DNA of 64,000 nt from Hericium rajendrae (taxonomy: Eukaryota > Basidiomycota > Agaricomycetes > Russulales > Hericiaceae): NCBI GenBank assembly GCA_033439255.1, contig CM065878.1, positions 4,092,001 to 4,156,000 of the forward strand. The letters run 5' to 3'. The notes under the pieces are model-generated. The model did not search any database and had not been told where the DNA came from. It saw nothing but the letters and a program-made list of their open reading frames with translations. Positions 6,732 through 64,000 of the stretch are shown here, in pieces (within the stretch, counting starts at the first letter, position 1; every line of letters begins with the position of its first letter). The position numbers and the translations under genes were made by a program.

Positions 6732-9700
6732 ATGGCGGATATCGTCATGGAGGAGGGAAAGTTGTTGAGCGAAGCGTTGAGCACCGTGAAAATCCAGGTC
6801 CAGCAGATGAAGAGGCATCTCGTGAGTTCATTCTTCGTGCTGGAGATGTCTGAAAGGGCCCGCACGTAGTGCGCGTTTGGTTTGCTGATAATGGGGTCGT
6901 GTAGGAATTGGATCAGCTCATGGACGCGCTGAAGAGTGCCAGTCTGATGCTAGCAGAGCTCCGAACGTCATCCTTGTCACCAAAGCAGTATTATGAACTT
7001 TGCGAGTAGCCATGCTCTGATTCAACTGAACTACAGCTCACTTTGGATACCACCAGATATGGCCGTGTTTGATGCCCTCAGATATCTGACCAACTACCTC
7101 TACGATGCACATACCCAATCGAAACACCACCTCGCCGACCTGTATGAACTTGTACAATATGCTGGCAACATTGTACCCCGTCTGTATCTCATGATAACCG
7201 TCGGCTCTGTCTACATGTCCGTTCCCGACGCCCCCGTGAAGGAGATTATGAAGGATATGATGGAGATGTCGCGCGGAGTGCTGCATCCCATACGCGGCCT
7301 TTTCCTTCGGCACTATCTAAGCGGGCAGACGAGGGACCACCTACCTGTTGGGTCTGATAATGGGTGCGTTCATCTTTTACTCCGTCTGGTTATATAGCAG
7401 CTTATCGGCTCTAGACCTGGAGGAAACCTGCAAGACTCGATCACCTTCGTTCTCACCAACTTTATTGAGATGAACAAGCTGTGGGTCCGCCTGCAGCACC
7501 AAGGCCACTCTCGCGACCGCGAAAAGCGCGAGATGGAGCGAAGAGAACTGCGCATCTTGGTCGGAACTAATCTTGTCCGACTTAGCCAGCTGGATGGCGT
7601 GGATTTGGATCTCTACCAAGGAACCATCCTGCCCGCTGTCCTGGAGCAAGTCGTACAGTGCAAGGACGTCATTGCTCAGGAATATCTCATGGAAGTGGTC
7701 ATTCAAGTATGCTTGTTCGATAATGCGCTCTATGTCCGCTAACCGCCATCCTGCGCAGGTGTTCACAGACGACTTCCATCTCCATACTCTCGGCCAATTC
7801 CTATCGGCAACAGCCCAATTACAGCCGAAAGTCAACATCAAGCAGATTGTTATAGCGCTGATTGACCGGCTCGCGGCTTATGCGGCTCGGGAAGCAGAGA
7901 ACGAAGATCCTGAGGAGACGAAACGCCAAGAGGAGGCCGCGGCGAAACGACTTGCGGAGCGCGTGAAGGTGCAGCGCGCGCGTGTTCGCGAGGCTAGCAA
8001 TCTCGCAAGCCCGACCAGCGAGTTCAAGCCGGAAGCCGATGCTTGGGGATCACCCACCAGCCCGACGCTTCCTGCCAGTCCTCCAATAAATGGGATTAAT
8101 GGAACCGGTGGGACGACGCATGCAGACGCGGAGAAGGGACCGGAGGCGGATGCCGAGAAGGCAGACAAGGGCAAGGAGAAGGAAGGTACTGCGCAAGTCC
8201 GAAAGTTCAGGGGAGTGCCCGAGAACGTCAAGCTTTTCGAAGTGTTTTGGGAGCAGGTCGTTCAGTTGATCAAGGTGTGTGTGGCCCAGTTTCGGTCTCA
8301 TCCCTGAATGATATTTACGATATGCAACCTAGGCACGACCAGATCTGGCGATTCAAGATGTTACTGCTTTGCTCGTGTCCTTGACTAACCTCTCACTCAG
8401 CTGTTATCCCGACCGCCTAGAGTATGTCGACCAGGTCCTCGGGTTTGCTCGTGATAAGATCAAAGAGTTCTCAGACAGGTTTGTGATATAATTTTTATAA
8501 TTTGTGTCTCTATTAAACTATGTTCACAGCCCTGACTTGCATAGTCAACAGACCACCAACAATCTTTCTGCCCTCCTTGTTGCTCCCATAAACTCTTATC
8601 AATCCGTTCTCACTCTCCTTGCTCTCGCCCACTACGTCCCCCTGCTGAACCTGCAAACGTATGCCACGCGCCGTACACTAGCCCACTCCATTGTATCATC
8701 AGTGCTGAAGAATGAGACGATCATCGAGGCACCAGAAGATGTAAACGGCATCCTCGAGTTGTGCCATGTACTGATCAAAGATCAACCTGATGCTGGCGTT
8801 GGCATGGGTAGTACCGGTCCACCGAGTATTCGAGACACCCGGCGGCATGGGCCGTATGGCGGGGAGCATGAGGATGTCGCGGAGGAGCAGGGCTGGATTG
8901 CACGAATGGTGCATTTGTTCCGAGCGGAGTCGCTCAGCGCGCAGTTTGAGGTATGTCGTCGCCTGCGCCTGCATGATGTCTTGGATGCTGATGTCCCTGA
9001 ACCAGCTGTTACAATCCGCCCGGAGACATTTCGAAGCTGGCGGTGACCGGATGCGGTACACGTTCCCCGCGCTCATCACCTCATCCATCAAGCTTTGCAG
9101 ACGGTATAAGAATCGGGAACACTTGGTACGCTCATCATCCCAGTAGCTGTGCCCGGCGATCGCTGATTGGGTGGGAACAGGAGGACGATTGGGCAACGAA
9201 AGCACAGGCCATCCTCAAGTTTATCCGCCAGCTCATCTCGATACTTGCGAACCAGGTCGAAGCTCCAGCCATCGCGCTGCGTCTATTCCTTCTTGCCGCT
9301 CAGATCTCAGACGAGTGTGGCTTTGAGGATCTTACTTACGATCTGTATGTCGAGGCCTTCACGGTCTACGAGGAGAGCATATCCGAGTCGCGCGCTCAGC
9401 TTCAAGCAATCACGCTGATCATTGGCACACTGCAAGGCGCAAAGGTGTTCGGCCTGGACAACTATGATACGCTCATCACTAAGGCGGCGCTGCACGGGGC
9501 GAAGCTGCTGAAGAAATCCCATCAAGCGACAGCAGTGCATCTTGCGAGTCACCTGTGGTGGCAGGAACCGCCACCTCCTGAAGGTCCACCGGCGGAAGAA
9601 AAGGACGCTGAAAAGTCTCCGCCGCCAAAGGAGAAAGAGAAGGAGGAGAGCGCGGAGAATGCGAAGGCTGTGAGTCAGGGTTCTTTGGCTGCATCGCTGG

Positions 9701-33396: not shown

Positions 33397-35750
33397 TTAG
33401 GATTGAGAAGGAAGACCTTCTTCGTCGTCACTACCATCACTATGTGCGATGAAAGTACGCTCATCTGAAGGGGATAGCGAGCCTGGCGTAAATATAAAGC
33501 CCCTATGAATGGAAGATAGAAGGGCAGATATGGGCGTCTTCGCATCCTCCATATCGTTGAGAAATCTCTTCATCGGCGTCTGCACAGCATGTAGGTTGGT
33601 TGTGCATGCTAAGTCAAGGGACGGAGGAGGCATGTCCTCGACTTCAACTCGTATTGGAGGTGTTGTAGATGCAGCAGGATCAATTTCACTGAGTGGGCTC
33701 GGAACGGCCTCCCCATCCTCAGATATCACGATCGGTGGGTTTGGAGATTGGGGGAGTGGTACTTGTGTAGGATCAATCTGCGGCTCGGGAGTGGGAGGTG
33801 AGTCAGGCGTAGGTATGGGCACATTGGAATCGACCGCTGGCTCTTGGCGGTCTTTCACGGGAGCCACCTTCTTGGGAGCTTCCTGTGAAGGCTTCGATTT
33901 AGCTTTTGCCTGTGCCCGTTTCGCGGGAGGAGCCGCCGATGTCTTTTTCTCCGACTTCATGGCTTTCGCGCGCGCGAGCTGCGACAGCGTCGGTTCGGTG
34001 ACACCCTTCCGACGAACTGTAGCAGTTTTGGCTGCAACGACGCGATCAAAGTGCGCAGTCTGTGATCGTGGAACTGGTGGCTTCGATCCTGGATGAATGA
34101 AGTTCTTGGCCCTATCCGAAGATAACATTGAGACGACGCGAACGTGCGATAAGGAGGAGCTACTTACGAGGCCGGTGGCTTTGACGGGACAGTCGACTTT
34201 GACGGAATCGGTGGCTTCGACGGAATCGGTGGCTTCGATGGAACAGGTGGCTTCGACGAAACAGGCGGTTTTGACGAGGTCGACGTCTTCAACGAAGCCG
34301 ATGACTTTGATGGGACCGATGGCTTTAACGGGACCGGATGCCTTGACGTTGCTTTTTGTCGTATTTTCGGGCTGCTGACTTGAAGAGCTTTCCTTCACCT
34401 CTGGAGGGGGGAGAAGAATACGTCTCGCTCCGCCCTTCTCCTTGTTGGGGCCCGATTGCGCAGGATCGCTGGTGGGAACAGTCTTCTTCGAAGGCCGGAG
34501 CGGGCCGACAGTCATGCTCATCGTCCTAGGCATGTCTCCGCGGGTCGGCTTGTCCAAAGGCTGGGGCCGCTGCGAAGGAAGTATGCGGAGTGGTGGCACA
34601 GTCACGGTCGTACCCCCTTCAGGACTCGTTTCGACTTTGGTCAATGGTCGCATGGGGCCCTGACGTGAGTGGAAGATCTCTGGAACGTTGTTTGCAGAAG
34701 CCGCAGGCACATCTTTACGGGCGGCGAGTGTCATGCGTGCGGATGTGGCATCCTTGACCAAGATAGTCGACGCAGACCGCGCTCTGCCATGGGTTGGGCG
34801 CTGTTCTTGTCTGCCACGATCCATGTGAAAGTCGCCATCGCTGTTGCGGGACGTTCATAAGGCACTTGTGAGGAGTGGGTTGAGGAGGAGGAGGTCGGGC
34901 GGGGAGGAGCTGGCGGCTGAGCAGCCGTTATGTTGAGATATTTTCTCGTTGTCGGGGACATCGTTGCAGCGAACCTTTCGGTCGTGAATCAGGTTGATTA
35001 GGGTGAAATCAAAGAAACTAAACTCACTGGTCCACCCGCTGTGGCAGCAGAATTTTATATGCATCCCATACTTTCCTACACAGCTTCCGTACATCTGCAT
35101 TTGCATCCGTCGCCGACACGAAAATGGCTCTCTCCACATCATGCGCTCTGACTTCCTTCTCCAGATCCGGCGGATTAAAGCAATTTAGACAGACATAGAC
35201 GCCCTCAATAGCAGTCATCCGGACACTCGTTGACTTGTCCTTCAGTGCATCTGCAAGATATGGCAGAATGGAGGGCAGCGTCGTCTCCTGGATGATTGTT
35301 TCGATGCCGCCCTTCGCCCGCGCGATAAACACCTTGTTCGGCCGCGCACAGACGGCCAGCAGCGCCGGCAAGAACATGGGCAGGATGGGCTCGAAGGCGC
35401 TCCCCAGCGCTCGCGCCGCAGAGCATAAAAGCTCAATCGCAGCACCAGAGAGGCGTGAGCGCTCAGAGGCGGCCGCTTTGGAGATCGGCCGGGCATGCTC
35501 CCGGAGGAAGGGTGTCAGCACGGAGGGGAAGTTGCGGCCGTCGTTGTCGACCAGGACAGAGAGGGCCTTGAGGGCTTTGGCGATGGTGTCCCAGCTATCT
35601 TCGGTCTCCAGAAGTGTCAGCGAGCCACGATGCCGCATCAACTCTTTCTGATATTCTGCAGACAGTTCAGACTGCGTGCGATCAGCGCAGAGATGGAGTT
35701 AATGCGTAAGTACGACACACCTTGGCACCGCGTTCAAACTCGCTAGGCAT
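33397..35750 (-). CDS. TOG/CLASP-N-like protein with long disordered tail
   Basis: The start at 35750 (MPSEFERGAK) splices into SELSAEYQKELMRHRGSLTL and a HEAT/TOG domain of about 190 residues. That domain holds EDSWDTIAKALKALSVLVDN, IELLCSAARALGSAFEPILP, MFLPALLAVCARPNKVFIAR, PYLADALKDKSTSVRMTAIE and LCRKVWDAYKILLP. This resembles the CLASP N-terminal domain, so a role at microtubules is likely. The tail (33,397 to about 34,824) is disordered, rich in Pro, Ser, Lys and Ala. It includes a hexapeptide repeat zone (34,180-34,345) and ends SDGSDDEEGLPSQS. The join between the two parts is unresolved. The frame reached by the intron at about 34,986-35,033 has a TGA at 34,855-34,857, while another frame across the same stretch (MSPTTRKYLNITAAQPPAPP) looks more protein-like. 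One or two base errors, or two genes, would explain it. Confidence 0.6.
34180..34345. repeat. Imperfect 18-bp tandem repeat inside the TOG-protein gene
   Basis: About nine copies of a unit close to ggcttcgacggaatcggt follow each other. On the coding (minus) strand they give degenerate hexapeptides such as SVEATD, SIEATC and FVEATC. The period of 18 keeps the reading frame, so copy number can change without breaking the protein. Confidence 0.75.
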
Positions 35751-54534: not shown

Positions 54535-57500
54535 ATGGCAGACAACACAGAAGTGAGTCATTCTCATGAATCTGAAGCTATCATTACTCATAATGAATAT
54601 CCTGACTTTTCAGGAAGACCAGCTCGTCGTCGACAAGGATGGCTTTGTACTGTGCCCAAGATGCAGCTCTAAAATTCTGATCGGCAACGGTGGACTTAAC
54701 AACTTCATGAAACAACACCTAGGAAACAAGAAGTGTGAGAAGGAGAGAAAGAAGCAGGAGAAGGACAGGACATCTCAGAAGAAGACCCAGCTACTTACCT
54801 CATTCTTTTCAAAGAAGAGTGCAGCAACGCCGGTGCCATCGACAGTCTCAGCGCCTCCATTGATTGCAGTTCCTCGTCCCCCACTCGAGCACGTATGATA
54901 TGCCAGTCCAGGCGCATCAGAGTCCAGTTGCATTGTGCCTGCAGGACAGCAACTTCTTCGTCAACTACAAGATGCAATAAAGCACATACCTGCGTCAATG
55001 CCAGAGGCCGAGGATGGTGATCTTATTGCATGGTTTGCAGGAGAACTGCTGACACTTCCTTCAGAGGATGCATGGGAAATGCTAGATCCCATGCTGAACC
55101 AGCTCGTTGGATATGGTGTGGCAGCAGAGAGGGCCATGCTGGATATGCGTTGTGGCAAGAATGGGCTGGATGGGCTCTACTGGTTCCTCAAGCACTTCAT
55201 CGAGATAAAGCAGGTTGAAGTGGTGTTGCTAGAAGGGAAGATGAGTGTTCTGCTCAAGGCTATCAAGATTGTGTGAGCATACCTGCATCTACTGTACAAT
55301 AAATGGACTACTGACACTTTCTTCAGCTCCAAGGCAGGTCATGACACAAGCGATGATACGTAGGAACCTTGTGATGATGATGCCGATCTGGTGATGCTTG
55401 ATGGTCTGCCCGACGATGCTGACAAGGTACTGCTTGATGGGCCGTCTGATGGAGCTGATCTGGTCATGCATGACGGACCGCCCAACGATACTGGAACGGA
55501 GCGTCAAAGTGATGATGAATCCAATATTGTGCTGCTTGATGGATCACCTCATAACTCTGCATCAGAACGATGACCATTGACTGCAGATAATTTGGTGGAG
55601 GCCCATCGGCAGAACAAAGTCACCATCATCAAGCATTCAAAGCAATGCCAGGGTTATGCACTCATCTTTCTGCCAGGTCAGACAGCCAATTCAAGTTATT
55701 CCTTTATGCTGCATGATGCATGAAGCTTACCATGGGAGTACAAATTGCATGCCGATATGTTTACGTTAAGAGCACGATCATGCTCAGGTCATGTTGTTAT
55801 CAAGGACCGATGCCCCGCATGCAACAAGCTAGAAGAAAACAGTATCCTCACTGGTATCATCAGCCAAATTGCAGAGGGCATTCATGAAAATGCACCATTC
55901 ATGTACTATGGGTGCACCGCACTTACTGACCTCACTCAGTGCAAGAACACCACCATCGATGAGCTTCGTCTGCATTGCCTCAATGATGCGAGGAAGCTTG
56001 TTGTCCATGCAGGCATCATCGACCAGCATAAGCAGATGTTGCTGGCTATCGCCAGTCAGAAGATTCCCTGTATTGGCCAGGCTTTACATGTGGGGTTCAA
56101 GCGAAACATGGGGATGCATGCCATGTTAGAACTGGTGAAAGGGCAGCAAATGGGACTTACCATCTGAAGAGCTTTGATGAAGAAGATGACTTGCAAGCAG
56201 TACTCCTCTCAGACTGGGTGGAGCTCGAGTCACAAACATTGCTCACCGGATACATGGGTCACCTGCTGCAGCGACCATCCATCGATGACCCGCAATCATG
56301 CTCATTCTTGCCTCTTCTGAGGTTCCTCAGATCCAGGAGATTCAAAGAAACATCGTCTCTTGTTTCGAAAGCTTGAAAGATCTAGAGATCATGAGGTTAG
56401 GTGGCATTTTTCATGGTGTAGTCATGTTCGATGAGATTGCTACTGAGCATTGTCCAAGATGGGATGATAAGAGTAACAAATTCCTTGGAATCTGTCAGAA
56501 ACATGCTGCAAAGACAATGCTGGTGTTCAAGACGAAGGAGGACCTTGAGATGGTCTTCGAAGATTTGGAGCGAGGTGAGGTTCATCTTGTGTCAGAGGTA
56601 AGTGCTTCAGTCGCTGCACTTTCCCCATTGGTCATTACTAATTGCCTGACATGTTTTCCATTGTCTACAGGCAACAGTCGGGGCTGTTGGCCTCTTGAAC
56701 TTTGATTCTCGCCTTTACAGCACATGCCCCGTTCTCGTCTCAGGCAGCTGTAAGCACGAAAATGCCGGGCAACATGCATCCATTATCCAGACCATGATTG
56801 ATGCTGTGAATAGCAGAGCAGATCTCATGCACACCCATATCATATCGCTTGCATCTGATGGCGAGGCTCGATGTGGATGAGCACTTATTAACCTCACCTT
56901 CAAGAATATGCTCCAGCCATCATCACCCATATATGCCATGCTCAATCCGCTTGCCCTCATGGACTTTCATGTTGGAGACGACGACATCACACCGGACAAG
57001 GACTATAAGCATGTCTTCAAGTGCCTTCGCAATGCTTTGCTTCGCAAGAAAGGCATTTGTGTCTGTGGCATTTGGCTCACACCCTCAATTATCCAGGCAC
57101 ACCTTCATGATGCGGGGCACTCCGCAATTCACGTTCGGTCTGTATTTGACCCAGAAGATAAGCAAGACGTTGTCCTCACCTACAATCTACTGAAGGATAT
57201 ATGGACTTTGCCACCATGTGAGCTGTCTACCAAGGTGCAACCTGGCTTCGTAGCTGCTCGGGATGCATTGAAGACCTTTGGCTTGTTCTGTTACCATTTG
57301 ATCTATCCCTACGTGTGCATTGACATGTCCCTGACCAAACAGCTCGAGCACCTTAGCATCATGGCCCATCTTGCACTAGCTCTCTTTGCTCATGATAGGG
57401 CACATGCAGACTTTGTGCCATCTCCACTTTATATCGACATCATGCTCATGGTAAAAAATGTCTACTTCTGTGTTGCAAAAGCCAAAGCTGATCTTCCAGA

Positions 57501-57852
57501 TAGCAAATTCTTCATTATTCTTCTCGGTACTGATTGCCTCGAGATGCTGTTTGGCATTCTTCGCACCATGGTAGGCAATGATGCTAATCTCGATGTCTTG
57601 CAACTTTCTCTTTGACTGGCTGGCACAACTGATGTTGCAAACATCTTCACGCAGTACCCTGAATGGGACAAGGGACCACATCGCCTTCACCTTCCTGCTA
57701 TTTCAAGGAGCAATATGACCATCCCAGATGCAGTGGACCATATCAACTCTCGATCATGGAGAGCAGATATCACTGTACGAGGGGTGTCTCTGGCGAGTTG
57801 CTGGAAGACCGGCCGACGTCTAGCCCATCAGGAAAAATGGTTCTTTAGGTGA
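54535..57852 (+). pseudogene. Decayed DNA-transposon-like gene (zinc finger plus transposase-like core)
   Basis: ATG at 54,535 (MADNTE) splices to EDQLVVDKDGFVLCPRCSSK, a short Cys/His zinc-finger region, with a Lys-rich tail. Further pieces are AWEMLDPMLNQLVGYGVAAE, RDRCPACNK-like and KDRCPACNKLEENSIL, VMFDEIATEHCPRWDDKSNK, ATVGAVGLLNFDSRLYSTCP, THIISLASDGEARCG, HVFKCLRNALLRKKGICVCG and LLGTDCLEMLFGILRTMVGN. This resembles a family of large basidiomycete transposase-like proteins. A link to P-element/THAP9-type transposases is my inference from the SDG and LEMLFG-x-x-R blocks. In-frame TGA or TAG codons occur at 54,896, about 55,360, 55,571, about 55,721, 56,878 and 57,613, plus frame changes near 56,140 and 56,290. 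Most stops could come from CGA or CAG by one C-to-T change. The gene is dead. Its missing C-terminus seems to lie at about 61,290. Confidence 0.7.
55372..55500 (+). repeat. 36-bp in-frame tandem repeat in the transposase-like gene
   Basis: Three to four copies encode DDADLVMLDGLP, DDADKVLLDGPS, DGADLVMHDGPP and a diverged fourth copy. The period of 36 bp preserves the frame. Confidence 0.7.
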
Positions 57853-58124
57853 TAGCCGGGATAGCACTACCAAAGCCACACCTTGGATACGGTAGCGAAG
57901 CCTCGGCTACCGATAGATAATCAGTTTGATATCTGTTGATCCAGAGATGTTACAAAACTGGAATCATGGCTACAGTAGTTCTCATAGCACATGTAGATCA
58001 TGAGACCATCCGACATCCTCATAAGCACACTCCAAAGCAACAGTCATTTTTTTTTACTATGAACAGTCACAATATATATTCATTGGGCTTGAATAGCATG
58101 TTTACAAATTAAATAAGTCGGCAG

Positions 58125-58966
58125 GGGAATACGCGCGAGTCCGCACGGAGGTGCGGGAAGTGGCGGGGGTGCAGGCAGCAGCACGGGCATGCTGAAGGTG
58201 GCATGGGCACGCTGCGTGGGCATACTGGATGTGGTGCAGGGGCATGTGAGTCCGTGCAGGGATGCGGGAGGCGGCAGGGGGGTGCGGGCAGCGGCATGGC
58301 TGTGTGCAAGGTGGCGCAGGCATGCACACATTGGCACAGGTGCATGCGAGTCAGCGTGGAGTCATGGAAGGTGCAGGCACACGGGAGGCATATGGGTATG
58401 CTGGCAGTGGTGCGGATGCGCAGGCATCAGCACGGGAGGTGCATGTGACTCTGTGCGGGATGCTGGAGGCCGCAGAGGGGCATGGATGCAGTGTTGCTGG
58501 CATGATCGAGTCAGTGGGGGCATGCTCGAGGTGGCGCAGATGCACTCGAGGCAATGGATGCATGCAGGAGGCAGCGTGGATGTGTGTGAGTGCAGCGTGG
58601 GTGCGCTGGCATTGACACGGCCACGCTGGAGGCGGCATGGGTGCGGGAAGCAGCGGGGGTGCAGGAGGCGGCGCCAGTGTGCGGGAGGCAGTGCAGGGGC
58701 TCAGGCATTGGCACGGGTGCATGCGAGTCTGTGCGGGGTTGCAAGAGGCGGCAGGGGTGCGCGGGAGGCAGCACCGGTATGATCGAGTCAGCGGGGGTGC
58801 ACAAGAGGCGGTGCAGATGCACGGGAGACGGGACAGGTGCGCTCAAGGCGGTGGGTGCATGCAGGAGGCGGCGTGGACAGGTGTGAGTCAGCGGGGGTGT
58901 ATGCGAGCCGGCGGGGACATGTTCAAGCCAACGCCAGCATGCACGATTCGGCGGGGGCCTGTACAG
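58125..58966. repeat. Left minisatellite array, 20-bp unit, G-rich on the plus strand
   Basis: Consecutive 20-base units can be read without gaps at 58,267-58,366, for example ggaggcggcaggggggtgcg and cgagtcagcgtggagtcatg. Other parts slip by one to fifteen bases. Length divided by 20 gives about 42 units. Units are diverged in sequence but keep gcatg and gagtc or gaggc cores. Confidence 0.85.
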
Positions 58967-59094
58967 TGTCAAAATGAGAGTATCAGGCGATACTCTCGAT
59001 ATCAGTGCAAAAAAGAGGTCAATGAAGTTGTTTTACTCACCTTATAGCCCTCTACACTATTGGCCATACCTTGCAGGTTTGAAAAACAAAGTGT

Positions 59095-59130
59095 GAGACG
59101 TGTTTGGCTGCAGCCAAATGTTTCCCACGC
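59095..59130. repeat. CTGCAG-centred palindrome in the central module
   Basis: The perfect core is tttggctgcagccaaa. Outer arms gtgagac and ttcccac pair imperfectly. It resembles the palindrome at 60,794-60,829. Confidence 0.75.
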
Positions 59131-59188
59131 ATCCCCCGCATTTTTTTTTGTTCAAGTCGAAATGCGCACAAGCATGGCCCGCTGCGCA

Positions 59189-59232
59189 CCGATTCATTTG
59201 AATGACCATATATGGTCATTCAAACAAATCGG
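59189..59232. repeat. 44-bp near-perfect palindrome
   Basis: The sequence equals its own reverse complement except for two base pairs on each side. The central 28 bp, from tttgaatgaccata to its mirror, are perfect. Confidence 0.9.
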
Positions 59233-59477
59233 ACCACGCGGCTCCGTGTGCAACAACTTTGCACTCGACTGCACTTCGTTTGCCATGTCACCCTCTTCCA
59301 CCCCTTCCTCACTGTGGAAATTTTATTGTAAGTTTCTCCCATACTTTTCTGATTCTTGTTGGGCTGGGAAGAAAGGTGAGTAACTACAGTTTTGCTGTAG
59401 CTTCATTTTACTTATCAAGAGAGTATCGCTCGACAATGCGTTGTTGAGCGATACTCTCATCTTTGTACCCTTCACAT

Positions 59478-60787
59478 GCCCACAGACTCCTGCGTGCCCG
59501 GGCTGCCTCATGCATGCCCGCACTGACTCCTGCATGCCCGCGCTGAGTCGCCTGCCCCCCCATCGACTCCCGCACACCCCCATCGCCTTGCTTGCGCCCC
59601 CACCGAGTCACACATGCCTGCGCCACGTTGCGCAAGCCTGCACTGACTCGCTCGTGCCCATGCCACCTTGCTCACATCCCCATCGAGTCACTCACACCCC
59701 CACCGAGTCGCACTTGCCCGCGCCAACTCGCCAACTCCTGCACACCCGCGCTGTCTCCTGCGTGCCCACGTCGACTCCCGCGCATCTCTGCCGACTCCCG
59801 TGCATTTCCACTGACTCCCGTGCATCTCCATTAACTCCCGGCACCCCCGCCAATGCCCCCACACTCCCGTGCCCCCACGCCGACTCCCTCATGCCTGCGC
59901 CGACTCGATCGCCGGCGCCACCTCCCATGCCCCCCTGCCGCCTCCCGTGTCCCCCTGCGCAGACTTGCCCGTGCCTGCGCTGATGCCAGCATGCTCACAC
60001 CACCGTTTGCGCGCCCATGCCGCTGCCCGCGCGTCCTTGCATGGACTCTCAAGCCCCCGCGCCATGTCCAGCGCATCCCTGCCACGTCCAGCGTGCCCTT
60101 GCCCCTCCTGTGCCCCCGCGCGGGCTTGCACGCCCCCGCGCGGTGTCCAGCGCACCCATGCGGCTTGCAGCATGGCTGTGTTGACTCGCATGCACCCGTG
60201 CAGACTTGCACATGCCCCCCGCTGACTCCCACGCTGATCCCTGCACCCCTGCACCGCCTCCCGCACCCCTGTGCCAACTTGCATGCACCTATGCGGACTC
60301 ATCGTGCCCACACCACCTCGCACATGCCTGCGCCGCCTCCTGCATGTGCATGCCACTGCACGCATGCCCACACTGCCTCCAGTGCACCCGCACCACCTCC
60401 ATGCACCCACGCCGACTCGCGTGCACACATGCAGACTCCTGCCTGCCTGCCCGATGCACGCCCACCCACACTGGTGCCTGTGCCCCCACGCCACTTCCAG
60501 GATGCCCATGCCATCTCCTGTGCCCCCTCCCCCCCCCACCGACTCACATGTGCCTGTGCAGACTCGTCGTGCCCGCGCCACCTCGCAGTGTCCGCGCCGC
60601 CTCCTGCGTGCCCATGTCACTGCTTGCATGCCCGCGCTGGCTCCAGTGCATCTGTACCGACTCCCGCATGCCTGTGCTGACTCCCACATGCCTGCACCGA
60701 CCCCTGTGCACACCTGCCGCCTCCTGCACACACCCGCCAACTTCTGCATGCCTCCCGCTGACCCCTACATGCCCATATTGCCTCCTG
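59478..60787. repeat. Right minisatellite array, same 20-bp unit, C-rich on the plus strand
   Basis: Ten gap-free 20-base units read at 59,525-59,724, for example gactcctgcatgcccgcgct and gagtcacacatgcctgcgcc. Each is the reverse-complement type of the left array. Length divided by 20 gives about 65 units. Long open frames across it are a by-product of the repeat composition. Confidence 0.87.
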
Positions 60788-60793
60788 TAGTAC

Positions 60794-60829
60794 GTGGGAA
60801 CTGTTTTGCTGCAGCAAGACATTTCCCAC
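60794..60829. repeat. Boundary palindrome gtgggaa...ctgcag...ttcccac
   Basis: A 36-bp near-perfect palindrome lies immediately right of the right array. Core and outer arms match the palindrome at 59,095-59,130, which suggests related element ends. Confidence 0.8.
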
Positions 60830-61080
60830 GGGCATTGGGTGCTGTAGGTGCAGAAGAATATGGACTGAAAGATGTACTACTAGTGTACAAGATGTAATTA
60901 GCCAAAAATATAATACTTTCTGTGGTATACTGCTGGAGATCTGATATAAGAGATAATCATGGATGATAACAAACTATACATAACTATAGGTGGAATGAAG
61001 CTACCAAAGGGTATAGACTCTATTGTAGGTGCACTGTAGATACTGTAGCTTTGAGCAGCTATGGTAGATTTGGCCATCTA

Positions 61081-61125
61081 CAGACTGCTATGGACTGCTA
61101 CAGACTGCTACAGATCAGCTACAGG
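61081..61125. repeat. 10-bp tandem repeat cagactgcta
   Basis: Four adjacent units read cagactgcta, tggactgcta, cagactgcta and cagatcagcta. The surrounding 61,030-61,215 has at least seven CTACAG or CTGTAG hexamers, as expected of transposon subterminal repeats. Confidence 0.75.
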
Positions 61126-61287
61126 TAGCAAATATAGAGACCCACTTGTCACCAAGAGCTACACAATCTATGGAACCTTTTTCAGCTACTGTAGATTAAT
61201 ATTGCTACTGTAGATCCCTGTAGAATCTATGCCTTTTCCAGATGGCCTGAACAGCTGTGTCCATTCTGCATTGATATCCTTTCGAAG

Positions 61288-61700
61288 ATGGACAACACAC
61301 CACATGCCTCAATTCTTGCACCTCATAGCATCCTCTTGTTTAGTCTCTCACTTTCAGATAGCAACCTTGAGGAGGATATGGCCATTGTAGATGACTCCAA
61401 TCTGCCGAGCTTCACTGAGTCCATGATACATACTACGGAGGGGCTCCAAGAGCTTGAAGACTCTGCAGTTGATGCTGAATGGGATACCAGCACAGAGCAA
61501 CAACCATTCTCGAAAGCCATAGATCTCGATGGCGGAGGGACACTTGTGAACAAATTCAAGGTTCTCGCGATGCTGTTCAAGTACAAGAAGACAGTGAGCT
61601 CGACTGACTGCCTGCACCGCGTACAGCAAGAAGGTCATTACAAGTTGATGCCGCAGCTTATTGATGGACCAGGCATTGATGTCACGGATCGCTCCATTTC
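61288..61700 (+). pseudogene. Probable C-terminal remnant of the transposase-like gene
   Basis: The open frame (61,288 onwards) has SNLEEDMAIVDDSNLPSFTE, an acidic stretch, and LVNKFKVLAMLFKYKKTVSS followed by TDCLHRVQQEGHYKL. This combination of a basic V-x-K helix and STD-x-x-RV motif looks like the end of the same large transposase-like protein family found at 54,535-57,852. It lies on the same strand in the expected order. The assignment is inference. The frame runs into the LTR region after about 61,700. Confidence 0.45.
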
Positions 61701-61769
61701 TCTCCGCCTTCTTCTCTGCCATCAAGGCATCGCGTCGGTCATGTGCTCCAGCAGCCCCATCACATGTTC

Positions 61770-62053
61770 ACTTCCTCACATGACCTGGGGCTATCCTTCA
61801 CCCATGCCCTTGTTCACCTTTGGGACATCCTATTGTTCTCCCTCCCATTGTTCTCCTTTTGGCCACCATTGTTCTCACTCTATTGTTCGACCCGTTATGG
61901 TGTCCATTGTTCTTTTCCCATTGTCGTCCCAGTACTTATAGGCTCCCTGTCGCTCGCCTATTTCCCTAGATTGTCCATTTCGTCTGTACCGTACTGTACC
62001 TCCAATACAGGTCACTGCGCTGCTAGTCGCTCTCTGCTCTCTCGCTCCCATCA
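61770..62053 (+). repeat. Candidate 5' LTR with repeated attgttc motif
   Basis: The left edge is uncertain (TG dinucleotides near 61,766-61,800). The right edge is taken as CCATCA, just before a candidate primer-binding site. Between 61,835 and 61,925 the motif attgttct/attgttc occurs about five times with irregular spacing. A TATA-like cttataggc follows at 61,935. Confidence 0.45.
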
Positions 62054-62057
62054 TCGC

Positions 62058-62072
62058 TGGTGACTTGGGTGG
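62058..62072 (+). other. Candidate primer-binding site
   Basis: TGGTGACTTGGGTGG begins with TGG, complementary to the CCA end of a tRNA, four bases after the proposed LTR end. The tRNA was not identified. Confidence 0.4.
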
Positions 62073-62289
62073 TTCTCTGCTGTCTACGACCGAGTCTTGA
62101 CACCTGGACAATCTCTCATACACCCGCCTCACCTCCCTACTATCGCCCATCATACCTTTCTTCTTTGAACCCTTCACCGCCGACATCTTCACCGAATCCC
62201 GACATCCATTCCATCAACCTCATCTCCCCTTTCCCATCGCCAACACCATCGAGGGTAGTGCACTCATCCCCCTCCTCCGCTATTGTGCT

Positions 62290-64000
62290 GTGAAGTGTTG
62301 GGAAGCCGAAGGAGTTTGGTTTCGATTGAGGTCGTGGAAACCACGTGCAGGTGCTATCTCCATTGCCTTATACGTTCGAATTCGAGTTTCCTTTGACGTC
62401 GACTTGCAAGAATTCACGTTCGGTGCCTCGGATATCGCTTACCACTGTCGCCAACCCAACCGAGGATCCCCTGCAAGTATCCTACCATCGACCTCGTTCC
62501 CCTTTTGCACACTAGGTCTCTTCACCCCTGAACCCTCACCTGAGCCTGTGTGGGCCAGAGAACGCTTCGGCCACCGATTCCTCAGAAACCCGTACTCGGA
62601 CCCCCTGTACCCTCGTGCTCTTGGTCGTCGCCCAGTTGCGGCTGACTTCTTCTAGACCTCACCATTGATCCCACCGACCCCCGTTTCCAGACCACAGAAC
62701 CATACCCACTCGGCGTCTTCGCCTCGCTCGACGAATACTTCATCTACACCCTTTCTGGCATCGTTCGAATAGACTTCGTCACTCCGGACGAGGACGACGA
62801 CGGTCCCGCACAGTGGTACTTCGCCGATCGTGACGACCAGGCAGACCTCGAGCTTAACGACTTCGACGTCGCAGCTACAGAACACCATCGCCAACACCCC
62901 GCTACCCCGCCGCTTCCCACCGTCGCCCTTCCTAGTGCAGATTCTCCCCCTGCTCGCACCACCCCACTTGTTGTTCCCCCAGGTATTACCTTCAACCCGG
63001 TAACCAACAAGCTACCCGCCTCGATACCCTTTGGGCCCCACCACCACCACCTGTTTCGACGCCTACCCCAGTACCAGTCCCCTCACCTGCTCCACCCGTT
63101 GCCGCTGTTGCATCGACATCCACCGTCAACGTCAAACCAACCATTACCACAGCCCCCCCTGTTCAGCCATCCATCGACATGTCCAACCCTGAGATCGGCG
63201 TCAAACCTGCTCCCTTTGAGGGAGATCGTTCCAAGTCCAAGGAATTCCAGCTGCGTATTCGCTTATTCCTTCGCGCCAACTCTACCCGGTATAAAGATGA
63301 TACCGCCCAGATCTCCCTCTTCCTCGACCTCTGCCAGGGCCCTATCGCCGGCCAGTGGGCCACCCAGCGCGTCGAGGAGATCCTTGAGGATGACGATCTC
63401 GTGGCTGCAAAAACATCTCCAGCTCATGTTCCCCGTTATGCCAACCTCACCGCCCTTCGAACTCGCTTCAACTTGGACTTCTCTCCCCTTGACGACTCCA
63501 AGGATGCCTCCCATGCTATCCAGACCCTCCAGATGGGTACGCGCCCGGTAGTCGACTACATCACCGAGTTTGAGTCCTTCGCCCCTCACACCGGCTACAA
63601 TGACGTGGCCCTGATCGACTGGTTCCTGCATGGCCTCAACAGCGCCCTGCGCGATGATTGCCAGCGCAGCTACCCCACGCCCACCACCCTGGCTGAGTGG
63701 AAGGCGAGGGCCCGTGACAGGAATGCTGCCTACCTCATGCGCACCCGGTTCCAGAGTCCCCGCCCTACAACTGGGCGCACCCCGGTGAGCACTCGCTCCC
63801 CTCAGTCCACATCTACGGGCCGATCCCGCACAGTCGCTGCTACAGGTGCCCCACTGTCCAAACTCTCGGAGCCTGACCGTGAGCGCCTCAGGCGTGAGGG
63901 CGGTTGCTTCCGCTGCCGCCAGAAGGGCCATGGCTTCCGCGACTGCCCCCTCAATGCCGACTCCAACCCCCGTGCCTCAACCCCTCGTGTCCGAGCGCTA
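62290..64000 (+). CDS. gag: Retrotransposon gag polyprotein (partial, two frame slips)
   Basis: The recognisable part starts near 63,179 (MSNPEIGVKPAPFEGDRSKS) and continues KEFQLRIRLFLRANSTRYKD, DLCQGPIAGQWATQRVEEIL, RTRFNLDFSPLDDSKDASHA and VVDYITEFESFAPHTGYNDV, the capsid-like gag core. It then reaches a zinc knuckle CFRCRQKGHGFRDC (about 63,907-63,950), pattern C-x2-C-x4-H-x4-C. Upstream, a Pro-rich leader and an acidic segment (IDFVTPDEDDDGPAQWYFAD) lie in another frame joined near 63,033 (gggcccc). A further segment from 62,290 joins near 62,652. Each needs one extra base. The true start is uncertain. This structural protein packages element RNA. Confidence 0.75.

Follow-up and report, generated by a model that had tools for sequence, protein, structure and literature searches.

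A probable non-autonomous Plavaka transposon with internal inverted 20-bp arrays in Hericium rajendrae

The 64,000-bp window analysed here, which is part of contig CM065878.1 of the Hericium rajendrae assembly GCA_033439255.1, contains one copy of a mobile element that is dispersed in many copies with sharp ends. This element is probably a non-autonomous member of the PlavakaB group of DNA transposons, moved by cut and paste through the transposase encoded by full-length Plavaka elements; its core would serve as a divergent promoter and its two arrays as methylated CpG islands. We file it as a variant form of the known PlavakaB group, here with internal inverted arrays. The window copy occupies positions 57826-61244 (3,419 bp; C1:4149826-4153244 in contig coordinates) and consists, in order, of a left end, a G-rich 20-bp array, a palindrome-rich core, a C-rich 20-bp array and a right end. 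An earlier note on this DNA had drawn the element limits at 57853 and 61287; the ends given here are those set from the alignment of 21 copies.

A search of the genome (46.77 Mb, 19 contigs) with the core as a query returned at least 40 separate places, including the window, that match over roughly 200 bases or more, a count that is a lower bound because 40 of 67 candidate places were scored. Twenty copies with 10-kb surroundings and the window make up the 21 copies examined at length; L036 was found separately from the core search. The core is kept in all 21, and the G-rich left and C-rich right arms are visible in most of them (weakly in L013, with an insertion displacing the left arm in L014, and with a G-rich stretch within the C-rich arm in L015, L016, L021 and L026). 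The sequence likeness among copies stops abruptly at CATCWGGAAAA on the left and at TTTTCCAGATG on the right, which defines 11-bp terminal inverted repeats (TIRs) of the form CATCWGGAAAA. In the window, the left repeat is CATCAGGAAAA (57826-57836, plus strand), with one mismatch to the right repeat CATCTGGAAAA (61234-61244, minus strand). Of the 21 copies, 18 yielded both ends, and L013, L021 and L022 yielded one. An exact 2-bp target duplication accompanies 14 of these 18, the exceptions being the window with 3 bp (GCC, 57823-57825 and 61245-61247), L023 with 1 bp, and L010 and L026 with none. The proposal of a mobile element, to which the earlier note had opposed a single copy with no element-like boundaries, is borne out by the number of places and their common ends. 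The joined flanks of the window copy match nothing in the genome except the window itself.

Inward of the TIRs lie a left subterminal region (57837-58128, plus strand), within which no outer 38-bp palindrome was found, and a right subterminal region (60831-61233, plus strand) with CTACAG/CTACTGTAG repeats. An outer 38-bp palindrome, CGTGGGAACTGTTTTGCTGCAGCAAGACATTTCCCACG, borders the latter at 60793-60830, and L009, L015, L016 and L026 have such a palindrome on the left as well, 335-348 bp inward of the element end. The arrays, with limits drawn by eye, extend over 58129-58960 (left arm) and 59478-60785 (right arm), both on the plus strand. Their lengths of 830 bp and 1.3 kb agree with the roughly 840 and 1,310 bp first described, and the other structural observations of the earlier note hold as well: the self-match at lag 20 is the highest among lags 3-69 in both arms of the window (0.42, z 3.7, on the left; 0.51, z 4.8, on the right), the GC skew flips from +0.34 to −0.39, and a middle of about 0.5 kb separates the G-rich and C-rich arrays when 57000-62200 is read. 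Tandem Repeats Finder, which the note had suggested as a check, gives period 20 in both arms, in short pieces only, as expected from the divergence of the 20-bp unit.

The ends connect the element to Plavaka. A 12-base end pattern occurs at 240 sites in the genome compared with 17 for its reversed control, so many elements share it, and at least three pairs of pattern matches, among those listed (100 places of the 240), are 12.4 kb apart and each enclose PF18759 hits. The 12.4-kb element that was read (L029 and L030) is 12,416 bp long with a TG duplication and has 16-base terminal repeats, the right copy of which equals the last 16 bases of L015; its 419-aa frame matches the Plavaka transposase (E 1e-85). 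The right end of the window element aligns to this 12.4-kb element at 69% identity over 195 bp, and its terminal 208 bp are 88% identical to L059 and L060. Plavaka transposase genes lie about 11 and 14 kb away from these two loci, which were read at the right-type end only, their other ends not having been found. As the element is without a transposase (the genome profile search lists no PF18759 match within the window copy) and the 12.4-kb elements with the same ends enclose one, we call it a non-autonomous Plavaka derivative. The lack of a transposase also means that the mobilising enzyme is one we infer: full-length Plavaka elements of the H. rajendrae genome would supply it, their transposase recognising the CATCWGGAAAA ends and the subterminal CTACAG-type repeats.

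We placed the element in PlavakaB because its ends and duplication fit that published group. In the available part of its description, PlavakaB, a CMCT group, is defined by the termini 5′-CATCA..TGATG-3′ and a 2-3 bp duplication (PMC12730594). CATCAGG forms the left end in the window, L015, L016, L021 and L026, and CATCTGG forms most other left ends and the right ends, the fifth base (A or T) being a small departure from CATCA. The duplications are of 2 bp or, in the window, 3 bp, with three copies at 0-1 bp. CATC..GATG termini and 2-3 bp duplications are thus common to both, but the PF18759 transposase is encoded by full-length relatives with the same ends and not by the element itself. These relatives also have a weak TET/JBP-like match, which is below the curated cut-off in all three 12.4-kb stretches and in the neighbourhoods of L059 and L060 (29.7-31.1 vs 34.9 bits). 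An element made up mostly of inverted 20-bp arrays and a core, without a transposase, is not described in the accessible part of PMC12730594. Classification of non-autonomous elements by ends and duplication is also the practice in PMC8290104, as far as its main text was available, with end motifs placed in the supplement. Genome-wide, there are 46 TET/JBP matches (38 above the cut-off, many with equal scores) and 132 Plavaka matches, counted as pieces.

The core was compared in 39 copies (the 21 read with their surroundings, 17 fetched as short pieces, and L036), and conservation was calculated over 22 representatives. From left to right, the window core displays a hairpin, GAGAGTATCAGGCGATACTCTC (58976-58997), which is the left counterpart of a 40-bp hairpin, GAGAGTATCGCTC...GAGCGATACTCTC (59419-59458); a minus-strand intron-like motif (GTGAGT, CTGAT, AG; 46 nt; 58995-59040); a central 38-bp palindrome (59092-59129), imperfect in the window and of a kind found in the 12.4-kb Plavaka element; a 30-bp palindrome around CCATATATGG (59196-59225) with a CArG-like box (59206-59215), CArG being a type of MADS-protein site; a conserved GTAAGT (59328-59333, plus strand; mean conservation 0.955); and a plus-strand intron-like motif (GTGAGT, CTTATC, AAG; 44 nt; 59376-59419). 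Both intron-like motifs were called from the splice consensus. Conservation is 0.85 overall and peaks at the central palindrome (0.90), CCATATATGG (0.95), GGTGAGTA (0.91) and a branch-like CT(A/T)ATC..AG (0.96). CCATATATGG is exact in 34 of 39 copies, and GTAAGT occurs somewhere in the core of 33. The 40-bp hairpin, at 0.79, is below the overall value; its spacer reads GTGGTGTC or the reverse complement, GACACCAC, in different copies, which we rejected as proof of cruciform inversion because a longer palindrome, shortened unevenly by deletion, would account for it equally well.

The palindrome around CCATATATGG exists as two sequence types, with its symmetry kept in both. Its covariation is 0.137 compared with 0.076 in shuffles (22 distinct sequences; 0/500 shuffles reach it), a value to be read with the provisos that the 30-mers were located by palindrome likeness and that related copies can exceed shuffles without constraint; two of five measures are not above shuffles (both-side pair changes, 249/500; pair types, 393/500). 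The plus-strand intron-like motif, with a span of 43-45 nt, is present in 34 of 39 copies and in 0/1950 shuffles. The minus-strand motif, pointing the opposite way, is present in 13 of 21 copies and in 14/2100 shuffles and absent from eight (L009, L017-L022, L027), its pattern having been loosened after a stricter version gave 6/39, mostly in shorter pieces. The shuffles moved two-base blocks, which is a simple control. In the full-length element, 38-bp palindromes are found at L029 6277-6314, near the middle, and at 9119-9156, the second preceding GTAAGT, CTAAT..TAG and the start codon (ATG) of the transposase frame. It is mainly this arrangement, a similar palindrome ahead of GTAAGT..CTAAT..TAG and a transposase ATG, that leads us to interpret the core as a putative divergent, spliced promoter module. 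Such a module would derive from an autonomous Plavaka element and drive outward transcription on both strands, giving two spliced, non-coding transcripts; their bodies would be the C-rich arrays, which take the position otherwise filled by genes. A search of Rfam gave no match, and a bacterial promoter scan relies on a bacterial model that is not applicable to a fungus.

The arrays change far more than the ends. In six pairs of close copies (L017 was used twice), 445 of 12,743 array sites differ compared with 28 of 5,453 sites in the end regions, a divergence about seven times higher; the core accounts for 64 differences. Transitions in CpG context make up 349 of the 445 array differences, with the reservation that the context was loosely defined and that the array sequence itself is CpG-rich. 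Array indels longer than 10 bp (n = 11) comprise nine of 19-21 or 40 bp and two of 102 and 123 bp, and single-base and 2-3 bp indels are also present. The observed/expected CpG ratio of the arms is 0.9-1.3 in L009, L010, L014 (right arm), L015, L018 and L024 and 0.5-0.9 in the window and L012; that of the right ends is 0.0-0.2. In Agaricus bisporus, according to the available part of PMC7473861, CpG methylation resides almost wholly within transposable elements. The pattern of the array changes leads us to propose methylation-driven decay of CpG-rich arrays that look non-coding. On this view, the arrays would act like CpG islands under methylation and vary by gain and loss of units.

A bolder reading, which we regard as speculative and rather unlikely, is that of a selfish element with an epigenetic payload, whose spliced divergent promoter transcribes a pair of non-coding CpG-island arrays. 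These would draw in or absorb cytosine methylation and serve as a methylation sink or timer. The three 38-bp palindromes would perhaps draw a regulator of the full-length element too, and the ends would keep their sequence and mobility while the arrays decay by CpG transitions. The Plavaka elements that probably mobilise it in the H. rajendrae genome would carry TET/JBP-like oxygenase domains. The decay of CpG in arrays next to nearly unchanged ends, beside such domains in full-length elements, makes the way in which fungal transposons handle DNA methylation a directly testable question.

Could the arms and outer palindromes be a separate mobile element that inserted into a Plavaka derivative and now travels with it? 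The 38-bp palindromes found on both sides of the arrays in L009, L015, L016, L026 and L057 are consistent with such nesting. So are six of seven other TIR-bounded elements that we read (L031-L037): L036 belongs to the inverted-array family as a diverged copy, and L031-L035 and L037 share the TIR without paired arrays (six of the seven have a duplication of at least 2 bp). We nevertheless consider nesting unlikely, as the 21 copies with surroundings have both Plavaka-type ends in 18 cases and one end in the other three, and the 38-bp palindrome is also a part of full-length Plavaka; this comparison covers those 21 copies, the seventeen others having been read at the core only. Two candidates for an autonomous carrier of the arrays were rejected: judged by eye, a 3.5-kb piece from within C1:374135-388795 resembles a Gypsy-like polyprotein, and the core of L057 contains an insertion of about 4.9 kb.

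It is less plausible still that the arrays encode repetitive proline/arginine-rich proteins and that the element is a pair of divergent protein genes. The C-rich strand does contain long open frames (e.g. 422 aa in L024 and 373 aa in L010), and the core is promoter-like in both directions. However, open frames are long on the other strand too and in several frames at once, as expected for arrays with 70-75% GC. Furthermore, 265 changes in the C-rich array are spread evenly over codon phases (91/91/83, counted from the element start and somewhat blurred by indels), most of the longer array indels have lengths not divisible by three, and copies differ in a possible start codon, which is either ATG or ACG.

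The likeness to Foldback, from which the earlier note had named the element, concerns shape. A true Foldback element would have long terminal inverted repeats composed of tandem repeats that pair as a hairpin needed for mobility, and we consider this improbable here. In favour of it, inverted arrays of one 20-bp unit surround a middle module and do align to each other: in the window, the reverse-complemented left arm matches the right arm at 68% identity over 674 positions with a score of 116, compared with 15-18 in five shuffles and 21 in direct orientation, and five of eight copies tested give 62-68% over 636-965 positions with scores of 79-156 (shuffles, ≤22). The hairpin proposed at over 800 bp would therefore extend over some 670 bp, with only about two-thirds of the positions paired. 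L014, L018 and L019 score near shuffles (24, 24 and 30), the value for L014 being uninformative because of its displaced left arm. The arrays are internal, beginning about 300 bp and ending about 460 bp from the element ends, and the ends are 11 bp long and match Plavaka; the duplications are mostly 2 bp, not the roughly 9 bp of Foldback. Because of these short ends, arrays that stop short of them and duplications, we do not regard the element as a Foldback.

The arms of one copy are, moreover, hardly better matched to each other than to those of other copies. The own right arm ranks 6, 2, 4, 10, 5, 8, 1, 5, 2, 1, 12 and 4 of 12 for twelve left arms (mean 5.0 vs 6.5 expected), a slight lean at most, and we rejected concerted evolution of the two arms within one copy on these ranks. 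In L017, L018, L019, L020, L022 and L027, period 20 is not leading in the left arm, and the left arm of this group (L018 5417-6300, minus strand) matches other places at 67-83%, outside the list of core matches; perhaps it was exchanged with another repeat family. An L018-type left arm scores 17-24 against every right arm tested, yet L018 and L020, located on different contigs, are 99.4% identical and so have moved recently. With complementarity of about 65%, near background in a recently mobile subfamily and not clearly better within copies, arm pairing seems dispensable for movement. The mirror-image look would have arisen by divergent duplication and not from a hairpin required for transposition. 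A subfamily with non-complementary arms that still moved is a natural test of the function of inverted tandem arrays.

Tandem-repeat inverted arms around a non-coding middle are shared with Tetris and Tm1, in which, according to the available parts of PMC4079207 and PMC3169594, the repeats form the terminal inverted repeats, the duplications are 8-10 bp and arm likeness averages 93% in Tm1. In contrast, the present element has internal repeats with a likeness of about 65%, 11-bp ends and a mostly 2-bp duplication. Galileo, of the P superfamily, likewise has a Foldback-like look in another transposase superfamily, with tandem repeats that vary in number, long terminal repeats and proposed secondary transposase sites, as given in the accessible part of PMC3573991; the arrays described here differ in lying inside the element. 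Thus, the Foldback-like shape appears in yet another transposase group, Plavaka, with arms that are internal rather than terminal. A keyword search of the literature found no basidiomycete Foldback element, and no such element is among the matches listed in wider searches, which are a small part of all hits; repeat libraries may hold related forms. An assembly artefact or a single local inversion has a negligible chance, given at least 40 dispersed matches and 18 two-ended copies with common ends, each in different flanking sequence.

The probable Plavaka derivative of the window lies within or next to a series of long frames (54557-57825 and 61245-61941), possibly another decayed transposase gene; by eye, the series starts with a zinc-finger-like stretch, and it matches TNP-like_RNaseH_C very weakly (E 0.063). 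The flank at 61680-64000 is itself repeated, being 96% identical to the sequence left of L012 and 90-93% identical to sequences flanking L019. Elsewhere in the window, 18-bp tandem repeats, possibly coding, occupy 34172-34336. Closely similar copies of the element in opposite orientation are found 10-43 kb apart on one contig at C2:1811808/1822097, C9:1487514/1497591 and C5:1352507/1395271, and may be local hops.
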